A stretch of 49,879 nt of DNA from an uncultured Pelagibacteraceae bacterium (lineage in GTDB: Bacteria > Pseudomonadota > Alphaproteobacteria > Pelagibacterales > Pelagibacteraceae). Numbering within the stretch: the first letter of the stretch is position 1; each line of letters opens with the position of its first letter. The position numbers and the translations under genes were made by a program. Below, one piece after another: positions 27,715 to 30,337 of the stretch. The stretch is from NCBI GenBank assembly GCA_902635975.1, contig CACPQC010000003.1, forward strand, positions 1-49,879, in the 5' to 3' direction. Under the pieces are notes generated by a model. The model searched no databases. It was not told the origin of the DNA and worked only from the letters and a program-made list of their open reading frames with translations.

Positions 27715-28161
27715 TTATTTGATATCAATAAGTTTTTTCTTTTTATGCTCTGGAACAATTCTTTCACAAGATATTGTCAAAAGACCATCTTTTAACTTTG
27801 CACCATTTACTTTTACATCATCAGCTATAGTAAATGATCTAGCAAATTGTCTTTGAGAAATACCTTTATGAATTATTTCTCCATCAGCATTATTATTTTC
27901 TGATTTATTAACTTGTTTAGTTCTTACAGTTAACAAATTATCCTCAAACTCAACTTCAACATCGTTTTTATTAAAACCAGCTAAAGCAACTTCGATTGCA
28001 TAATTATCCTTACCAGTTTTTCTGATGTTATAAGGTGGGTAGTTTGACTGCATAGTCAAAGAACCATTACCAAGCATATTTTCAAATTGATCAAACATAT
28101 CATCAAAACCAATTGAAAATGGTCTTAGTGAGTTGAATATAGATAAATCCTTACTTGTCAT
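27715..28161 (-). CDS. hsp20: Small heat shock protein, Hsp20/IbpA type
   Basis: This is an alpha-crystallin-type holdase chaperone that keeps unfolding proteins from aggregating. The 148 residues have an N-terminal arm with FDDMFDQFENML, a crystallin domain (about residues 40-135) opening with YPPYNIRKTGKDNYAIEVALAGF, and the conserved DNLLTVRTK and FARSFTIADDVKVNGAKLKDGLLTI. A lone Hsp20 gene with an AGGAGG ribosome-binding site. It is under a sigma-32-like promoter and a ROSE-like leader, described separately, and ends at a strong hairpin. Confidence 0.97.
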   Translation of the reverse strand: MTSKDLSIFNSLRPFSIGFDDMFDQFENMLGNGSLTMQSNYPPYNIRKTGKDNYAIEVALAGFNKNDVEVEFEDNLLTVRTKQVNKSENNNADGEIIHKGISQRQFARSFTIADDVKVNGAKLKDGLLTISCERIVPEHKKKKLIDIK

Positions 28162-28218
28162 AATATCCTCCTTTGTTAAGCAAGTTTATTTATTGTTAGC
28201 CCCATTAGGCGACCAACA
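28162..28218 (-). promoter_or_regulatory. ROSE-like RNA thermometer in the hsp20 5' leader
   Basis: On the transcript, CUUGCUU (+ strand 28178-28184) can pair with AAGGAGG (28167-28173), which contains the ribosome-binding site, across a four-base AACA loop. One G-G mismatch remains inside. A U-U/C-G-C-U motif facing the Shine-Dalgarno site with a G-G pair is the defining feature of ROSE thermometers of rhizobial small heat-shock genes. An upstream stem, UGUUGGUC with GGCUAACA (28194-28218), begins almost exactly where transcription should start. The pairings are read directly; temperature sensing is inferred. Confidence 0.65.
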
Positions 28219-28224
28219 TTATGT

Positions 28225-28252
28225 ATATGGGAGTAATTTATTTTTTTTCAAG
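28225..28252 (-). promoter_or_regulatory. Sigma-32 (RpoH) promoter of hsp20
   Basis: On the minus strand CTTGAAA (28246-28252) is followed after exactly 14 bases by CCCATAT (28225-28231). This equals the classic RpoH consensus CTTGAAA-N13-15-CCCATnT. Start of transcription is expected near 28218, giving a leader of about 57 nt. The promoter sits just after the oligopeptidase B stop codon. Confidence 0.82.
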
Positions 28253-28255
28253 ATA

Positions 28256-30337
28256 TCAAAATTTAATTTTTTCAGAGATCTTTAAAATAAATGTGTAGTC
28301 AAAAGCTATTTCTTCGATGGCACCATCTCTACCTGACTTCCCCCCATGGCCTGCGTTCATCTCAGTTTTTAACAAAAGCAAGTTATTGTCTGTTTTAAGA
28401 TCTCTAAGTTTGGCTGTAAATTTTGCTGGTTCATCAAATAATACCCTATTATCACTTAAGCTTGTTGTAATTAACATGTGAGGATAATCCATTTTTTTAA
28501 TGTTGTTATATGGAGCGTAAGAATAAATATAATCAAAATGCTCTTTTTTATCTTTTGCATTTCCGAATTCATCAAATTCTCCAACAGTAAGAGGCAAAGA
28601 ATGATCCAAGTTAGTTGTTAATGAGTCAACAAATGGTACAGCCATAACAATTCCAAGAAATAATTCTGGAGATTGATTAACTACTGCTCCCATTAATAAA
28701 CCACCAGCTGATCCACCCATACCAATAATTTTTCCTTTCGACGAATATCTTTTTTTAATCAAAAACTTTGCTACGTGGATGTAATCTTCAAAAGTATTTT
28801 TTTTATTAAGAAGCTTTCCTTCTTTCCACCATTTCATTCCTTTTTCCATTCCCCCTCTAATATGTGCAGTTACCCAAATAATATCTCTGTCAATTAAACT
28901 CAATCTAGTTGAGGAAAAATCTGGAGTCATTGAACTTCCGTATGACCCATAGCCATATAAAAGTAAATTTGCTGTTCCATTAATTTTTGTTTTTTTGTGC
29001 CTGGTAATTGTAAGTGGAACCAATCTTCCATCATGAGAAGGGCACTCCAGTCTTTCGACTATATAGTCATCCGGATTATGACCAGATGGGATTTCTTGTT
29101 CTTTTACTAATTTTTTTTCTTTTGTTTTTAAATTGTATAAATAAGTTTTGCCTGGTGTTTTCGGGGACGAATATGACAAGTAAACAAAGTCAGTATTTTT
29201 ATTTCTTTGTATCAACGAGACATTAGGCACAATCACAGATTCGTCAGTAAATTTTAACTCTTCCTCAATTCCTGTTTGTCTATTTCTTACAAATAACTTT
29301 CCTAATGCATTTGATTTTTCTCCTCTGATAATCCAATCATTTAAAAATATTAATCCTCCGATTAAAACCTCTTCTTTACCAGCTATATAAATTTCCCACT
29401 TTTGATTTGATAAATCATCACATCTTTCAATTTTGAAATCCTCTGCATCATCATTAGTATGACAATAAAAATATCCACCCCAAGAATTGACTGAATAAAT
29501 TACTCCCTTTCTTCTTTTTATAATTAATTTTGGTTTTGGGTTTTTTTCTGTTACCTCAAAGTAGTATTGTTCAGAAGTATTATGATCTGATGTTGTTATA
29601 AAAAAATATTTTTCATCTGAACTCAAACTTATACCTACAGTAAATGCTTCGCTTTTCTCTTCAAAAATAAGCTCATCATCTTTAGCTGATGATCCAATTT
29701 TGTGTCTAAATATTTTTCTGGGTCTATGAAATTCATCAAGCTTTGAATAAAAAAAATATTGATCGTCCAAACTAAATGCAATACTTCCACTTGTCTCTTC
29801 TATTTTCTCAGTGACTAATTTTCCTGAGGTAATATTTCTTATGTAAATTGTATAATATTCAGATCCTTTTAAGTCTAAAGAATAACCTAAAAGTTTATCA
29901 TTATAACTAACCTCTAAATCACCAACACCGAAATATTCAGTTTTTAATTTACCTTTTTCGAGGTCACCATTCCAAAATTCTTCAACAGTATCACTTCCAA
30001 TTTTTTTTCTAAGTTTTTTTGAATAATTTCCTATCGCAGTTGTTTTAGTCCAATATTCATATTCTTTGTCTTTAAATTTTAATGATTCATCATCTAATTT
30101 TATTCTACCTTTAATTTCATCAAATAAGATTTTCTGATATTTTTTTGTGTCTTTTAAATTATGTTCTGTAAAATTATTTTCTTCTTCAAGATATTTCCTA
30201 ACATCTGGAAGTAGCTTGGAACTATCTTTTAAAACCTCAAGAATATTATCCTGATGGATCCAACTATAATTATCTTCCCACGTGGTATTGTGACAAGATT
30301 TAAGCTCTGGTTTTTTTTTAAGTTGTGGTATTTTCAT
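28256..30337 (-). CDS. ptrB: Oligopeptidase B (S9 family serine peptidase)
   Basis: This cytoplasmic prolyl-oligopeptidase-family enzyme cleaves small peptides after basic residues. An N-terminal seven-bladed propeller covers about residues 60-400 and a C-terminal alpha/beta-hydrolase domain follows. The catalytic serine is in GMGGSAGGLLMGA. The aspartate is probably in TSLSDNRVLFDEPAKF and the histidine in MNAGHGGKSG. The block WVTAHIRGGMEKGMKWWKEGK is typical of oligopeptidase B. The length of 693 residues is as expected. Its start lies 14 bases from the preferred start of the divergent DnaJ-like gene. Confidence 0.95.
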   Translation of the reverse strand: MKIPQLKKKPELKSCHNTTWEDNYSWIHQDNILEVLKDSSKLLPDVRKYLEEENNFTEHNLKDTKKYQKILFDEIKGRIKLDDESLKFKDKEYEYWTKTTAIGNYSKKLRKKIGSDTVEEFWNGDLEKGKLKTEYFGVGDLEVSYNDKLLGYSLDLKGSEYYTIYIRNITSGKLVTEKIEETSGSIAFSLDDQYFFYSKLDEFHRPRKIFRHKIGSSAKDDELIFEEKSEAFTVGISLSSDEKYFFITTSDHNTSEQYYFEVTEKNPKPKLIIKRRKGVIYSVNSWGGYFYCHTNDDAEDFKIERCDDLSNQKWEIYIAGKEEVLIGGLIFLNDWIIRGEKSNALGKLFVRNRQTGIEEELKFTDESVIVPNVSLIQRNKNTDFVYLSYSSPKTPGKTYLYNLKTKEKKLVKEQEIPSGHNPDDYIVERLECPSHDGRLVPLTITRHKKTKINGTANLLLYGYGSYGSSMTPDFSSTRLSLIDRDIIWVTAHIRGGMEKGMKWWKEGKLLNKKNTFEDYIHVAKFLIKKRYSSKGKIIGMGGSAGGLLMGAVVNQSPELFLGIVMAVPFVDSLTTNLDHSLPLTVGEFDEFGNAKDKKEHFDYIYSYAPYNNIKKMDYPHMLITTSLSDNRVLFDEPAKFTAKLRDLKTDNNLLLLKTEMNAGHGGKSGRDGAIEEIAFDYTFILKISEKIKF

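Follow-up and report, generated by a model that had tools for sequence, protein, structure and literature searches.

A short two-hairpin leader upstream of SAR11 hsp20 as a candidate ROSE-like RNA thermometer

The hsp20 locus and its leader

The window analysed here is a 49,879-nucleotide stretch of contig CACPQC010000003.1 (assembly GCA_902635975.1) from an uncultured Pelagibacteraceae bacterium. It carries an hsp20 gene on the minus strand (Table 1). The genome is that of a Pelagibacter (SAR11): each of the 80 closest relatives fetched with the Hsp20 protein bears the name Pelagibacteraceae, Pelagibacter or Pelagibacterales. A 57-nt leader lies directly upstream of the gene, and both its coordinates and its sequence check out. 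The next gene upstream, likewise on the minus strand, encodes a prolyl oligopeptidase (S9; 28256–30337), and its stop codon falls just short of the hsp20 promoter.

Table 1. Features of the hsp20 locus, in window coordinates
Feature	Position	Strand	Sequence or product	Basis
-35 element, sigma-32-type heat-shock promoter	28246–28252	-	CTTGAAA	sequence and family promoter scan
-10 element, sigma-32-type promoter	28225–28231	-	CCCATAT	sequence and family promoter scan, 14-nt spacer
hsp20 leader	28162–28218	-	57 nt	
Hairpin I	28194–28218	-	UGUUGGUCGCCUAAUGGGGCUAACA	composition UGUUGGUC-G-CC-UAAU-GG-GGCUAACA
Anti-Shine-Dalgarno strand	28178–28184	-	CUUGCUU, with ROSE motif UUGCU	motif opposite GGAG in all distinct leaders
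Hairpin II loop	28174–28177	-	AACA	sequence
Shine-Dalgarno sequence, closed in hairpin II	28167–28173	-	AAGGAGG	sequence; leader-only fold
hsp20 start codon	28161–28159	-	AUG	
hsp20	27715–28161	-	small heat-shock protein, 148 aa	Pfam HSP20 PF00011, 64.4 bits, E 1.1e-17
hsp20 codons 2–4	28150–28158	-	ACA AGU AAG; AAGUAAG (28156–28150) complements CUUGCUU	codon conservation and folds

A TTGAAn-N14-CCCATAT-like promoter is found upstream of 168 of the 179 distinct family leaders, compared with 1 of 179 in shuffled sequence, and its spacer is 14 nt in 167 of those 168. RpoH is encoded in the same genome (model match, 362.8 bits). Both observations fit the transcriptional part of the heat control proposed in the preliminary description. 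Transcription would start at about 28217–28219, coinciding with the first base of hairpin I, in agreement with the earlier remark that the first stem begins almost exactly at the predicted start.

The leader comprises two hairpins, I and II. Hairpin I carries an invariant bulged G, as the Rfam ROSE and ROSE_3 families do. In hairpin II the anti-Shine-Dalgarno strand can pair with the Shine-Dalgarno sequence (SD) around the AACA loop, a pairing noted previously and confirmed here in sequence and coordinates. The leader folds better than its shuffles (z -2.9, with 4 of 200 shuffles equally good), which for a single sequence is suggestive only, and that minimum-energy fold places CUUGCUU on codons 2–4, not on the SD. 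When the coding sequence is omitted, hairpin II is present at 0.91–1.00 from 5 to 45 °C. ViennaRNA folding of the leader only leaves the SD unpaired at 0.12 at 5 °C and 0.24 at 45 °C, a shallow rise, and temperature folding with this program gave no clear melting curve. With so little melting predicted, it is the motif and the tested relatives that speak for a thermometer function.

Conservation of the leader and of the first codons

The sampling of leaders covered the genus, its family and the order's sister family. An Hsp20 gene is present in 12 of the 14 sampled family genera, and 217 of 223 loci carry T[TC]GCT with GGAG and ATGA after it. The six loci lacking the motif are two whose upstream sequence is absent (L062 and L214) and four divergent paralogues. 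The latter are second Hsp20 genes (L159, L160, L192 and L193), carried by a few family genomes.

Hairpin I is supported by strong covariation. RNAalifold recovers it unaided from 41 leaders. In the two-hairpin structure, 95–97% of cells are paired and 33 cells are changed on both sides, versus 8 in shuffles. With 100 leaders aligned to the model, 97.0% of cells are paired across the whole structure (98.4% in helix 1) and double changes number 79 cells versus 20.2 when shuffled; sliding the partners by one to three columns abolishes this signal. Relatedness was allowed for by a tree-aware null in which every column is re-evolved on a tree built from hsp20 coding sequences. Against this null, hairpin I has a summed covariation of 334.5 (null mean 95.6, maximum 262.1; 0 of 1000) and 98.6% paired cells (null maximum 92.7%; 0 of 1000), figures that lean towards the structure because the alignment was fitted to it; a plain MAFFT alignment (A2) shows the same picture. 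In 31 cases both sides of a hairpin I pair changed on a single branch and pairing was preserved, and hairpin I pairs account for five of the seven strongest column pairs in the whole alignment. The individual varying pairs are less decisive (p 0.003–0.29).

Hairpin II exhibits almost no covariation, and none is expected because one of its sides is the Shine-Dalgarno sequence. Its other side is nearly frozen. U(U/C)GCU stands opposite GGAG in all 172 distinct Pelagibacteraceae leaders, with U at the variable position in 168 and C in 4. Over a tree of length 11.9 the six CUUGCU columns together change once, while most linker columns change 4–11 times and the 5' flank 21–38 times. The support for hairpin II, as read from these alignments, is this invariance together with the known motif. 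Compensatory changes among relatives, which the preliminary description had named among its checks, are thus found in hairpin I and accompanied by an invariant motif opposite the SD.

Two pairing registers are available to hairpin II. In one, a G-G mismatch is flanked by CUU/AGG and CUU/AAG; in the other, CUY-[G]-CU pairs with AG-GAG around a bulged G. Register counts were made on anchored sequences, because an unanchored MAFFT alignment of CUUGCUUA together with CCUUGCUA leaders (A1) displaces the motif by one base. Every one of the 172 leaders can form the bulged-G pairs 50-68, 51-67, 52-66 and 54-65. In the G-G register, by contrast, the outer C-G pair is missing from 31 of the 172 and U52-A67 from the four UCGCU leaders. 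The G of the motif is invariant across leaders. By folding energy, the G-G register is preferred in leaders that combine the SD GGAGG with the motif ACUUGCUU; in the remaining lineages the bulged one is. In 53 leaders an extra C (CCUUGCUA) always faces a G at the SD end, replacing the lost inner U-A pair. The G-G mismatch initially described opposite the SD is therefore a possible pairing, but only one of two, and it is the bulged-G pairs that all leaders can form.

Conservation extends into the coding sequence. Among 107 conserved codon columns, only those of codons 2–4 lack synonymous variation altogether across 154 genes, which are not 154 independent tests because the freeze is inherited. 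AGU and AAG are minority codons: in the rest of these genes, AGT encodes about 6% of the serines and AAG about 20% of the lysines. In neighbouring genes early codons are frozen only where they are common. Pairing of codons 2–4 to the anti-SD strand is worth -10.3 kcal/mol, versus -2.9 kcal/mol after synonymous resampling. In folds that include 15–24 nt of coding sequence, the codon 2–4 helix reaches 0.87–0.99 and leaves the SD in a 21-nt loop. The freeze is confined to lineages whose protein starts with MTSK or MTGK. These frozen codons suggest that the RNA itself is under selection, most simply for pairing with the anti-SD strand.

Relation to described thermometers

In a scan of 401 bp around the leader, ROSE_3 (RF02523; 22.1 bits, E 0.021, gathering score 43) and ROSE (RF00435; 19.7 bits, E 1.1, gathering score 45) are the top two scores among 4227 Rfam families, both on the correct strand and in the correct place and aligned through the start codon. 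The covariance-model search suggested earlier thus returns the ROSE families as the best matches, although both fall under their gathering scores, and no Rfam match reaches its gathering threshold in the window. The same holds more widely: ROSE_3 reaches the threshold in 0 of 99 family genomes and RF00435 in 0 of 142 class genomes, where its best scores are 41.9, 38.5 and 37.4 bits. Because even these best matches in the class miss the threshold, it is a strict one, and missing it says little. Rfam's current ROSE models are too narrow and miss the whole SAR11 clade.

R1, a covariance model constructed from the SAR11 leaders, has a single convincing match in this genome, which lies ahead of hsp20 (79.6 bits); the next match has an E value of 1.0, and this search revealed no convincing further thermometer in the genome. 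In other orders of the class, with genes named from their translated sequences, the top three R1 matches are hsp20 leaders (E 2e-5 to 3e-5). The 13 matches outside the order also include a fourth hsp20, two dnaK leaders and one rpoH leader. The dnaK (L234 and L239) and rpoH (L236) matches, around position 1501, are weak and lie directly upstream of the genes (E 0.007–0.024 per genome); these leaders, from other alphaproteobacteria, carry UUGCU or UUGCC ahead of the SD.

The order's sister family has a three-hairpin ROSE-type leader with the last hairpin AAUC-[G]-CUU/GGAGGAUU. At these loci (L204–L223), about 100 nt upstream of hsp20, the leader ends in a nearly invariant AAUCGCUUAAGGAGGAUU. 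It apparently has the classical ROSE shape while scoring below the Rfam thresholds.

The closest described element is the ROSE-like leader of Pseudomonas putida and P. aeruginosa ibpA, a two-hairpin structure of 61–62 nt proven by probing and reporter fusions (PMC3669281). Both leaders fit two hairpins into about 60 nt ahead of a small heat-shock gene, with a stable, conserved first hairpin, a second in which U(U/C)GCU faces the SD, and the AUG outside the SD hairpin. In Pseudomonas, hairpin II alone senses temperature and hairpin I remains closed (PMC3669281). The ibpA element differs in belonging to the Gammaproteobacteria and in a core with G-C pairs on both sides, whereas the ends of the SAR11 helix are weaker; the SAR11 element in turn has the codon 2–4 complement. 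With ROSE RF00435, of the rhizobial hspA type, the SAR11 leader shares its place ahead of a small heat-shock gene, a hairpin I with a bulged G before CC and a small loop, and UUGCU facing AAGGAGG. It has neither the middle part of that model nor the extended stem enclosing the AUG. The two-hairpin ROSE_3 model aligns with the SAR11 leader end to end through the AUG and has the same bulged G before CC and small loop in hairpin I. FourU and cyanobacterial hsp17 thermometers likewise mask the SD of a small heat-shock gene, but they use UUUU masking or a single hairpin without UUGCU and a bulged G. Assignment to the fourU class is ruled out, as the strand opposite the SD is CUUGCUU or CCUUGCUA and not four U opposite AGGA.

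The SAR11 leader shares several attributes of ROSE-like elements: it precedes a small heat-shock gene, has between two and four hairpins of which the upstream one is stable and conserved, and in its 3'-most hairpin sets U(U/C)GCU against the SD in an imperfect helix with a bulged or G-G paired G. ROSE is described as probably the most abundant thermometer class; its more than 40 examples come from alpha- and gamma-proteobacteria and invariably accompany small heat-shock genes (PMC4166951). The papers checked report no thermometer in SAR11, an absence that is no proof of novelty, and a search for the relevant terms in a dedicated study of P. ubique structured RNAs gave no report of the hsp20 leader.

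A putative heat-responsive switch in SAR11

The SAR11 hsp20 leader is in all likelihood a short two-hairpin ROSE-like RNA thermometer, and the thermometer interpretation of the preliminary description is well supported. Both hairpins are conserved, the ROSE motif is invariant, the promoter is present, and conservation extends across the order. Under heat stress the sigma-32-type promoter would produce hsp20 mRNA. At ordinary sea temperature, hairpin II is predicted to pair U(U/C)GCU imperfectly with the SD and keep ribosomes off, and the leader very probably hides the ribosome-binding site until the cell warms, judging by its resemblance to proven elements. Warming would then open the weak hairpin II helix and allow translation to start, presumably within the temperature range of SAR11. 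Hairpin I, beginning at the 5' end, may be a stable, non-sensing element that aids folding of hairpin II. Because the motif, the covariation, the promoter, the sister-family leader and the matches of the SAR11 model elsewhere all point the same way, the SAR11 leaders appear from their sequences to form a new, short clade of ROSE-like thermometers with a plan close to that of Pseudomonas ibpA.

One alternative is that the leader, being AT-rich, complements the SD merely by chance. The bare pattern TTGCT..AAGGAG..ATG has about one unrelated occurrence per genome outside hsp20 in the relatives, and the z of the single-sequence fold is only -2.9. The pattern alone is too common, so the case is made by conservation and covariation; the motif's invariance in 172 leaders and the tree-aware covariation refute chance pairing, which retains a negligible probability. 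A different possibility is that the structure hides the SD and is no thermometer, either constitutively lowering translation or being opened by a factor such as Hsp20 itself. IbpA reportedly acts on its own mRNA in E. coli, the melting predicted from folding energies is slight over the range from 5 to 45 °C, and the strong conservation of hairpin I could mark a protein-binding site. However, the motif is the hallmark of tested ROSE elements, and the equally conserved first hairpin of the Pseudomonas leader is neither temperature-responsive nor needed for heat induction (PMC3669281). We consider a non-thermometer role rather improbable, and the two views are not mutually exclusive.

Against the thermometer stand the missed Rfam gathering scores, the shallow predicted rise in SD accessibility, and an energy model that prefers the anti-SD strand on codons 2–4 when the first codons are included and so frees the SD. 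A further reading would add to the thermometer and not replace it. In the Pelagibacter lineage the anti-SD strand might have two partners, the SD or codons 2–4, where AAGUAAG is an SD look-alike, and the leader might switch between them; we regard this as conceivable, though on balance somewhat doubtful. With similar reservations, the frozen codons could act on the SD as a decoy, either releasing or holding it, or could enclose the whole ribosome-binding region in the 21-nt loop. Codons 2–4 rank 1–3 of the 107 columns and two of the three are minority codons, the frozen codons at the beginning of neighbouring genes are all common ones, and the codon helix is strong both in energy and in folds with the coding start. 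Yet the complement is absent from lineages with another N-terminus and from the sister family, where the ROSE motif is kept, and ACA is also kept unchanged by lineages in which its final A is unable to pair. Some other purpose might explain the freeze. Given the limited range of lineages, and since AGC would pair better than the fixed AGU, the codon partner is treated here as a proposal. A codon partner as a general ROSE feature was rejected, as it is not seen in the other alphaproteobacterial leaders examined, with the exception of L245. Tentatively, Pelagibacter and close genera may possess a bistable ROSE element, part of whose switch lies in the coding sequence by way of fixed minority codons.

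Members of SAR11 are among the most abundant bacteria in the ocean and are known for shedding most of their regulation. The stripped-down SAR11 genomes nevertheless seem to retain an RNA temperature switch. A SAR11 covariance model would add a clade that Rfam misses, and the frozen codons bear on whether coding sequence can form part of a ROSE switch. If the thermometer reading is true, two-layer control of one chaperone would repay its cost even where the genome is minimal, and this would bear on how SAR11 cells meet ocean warming.
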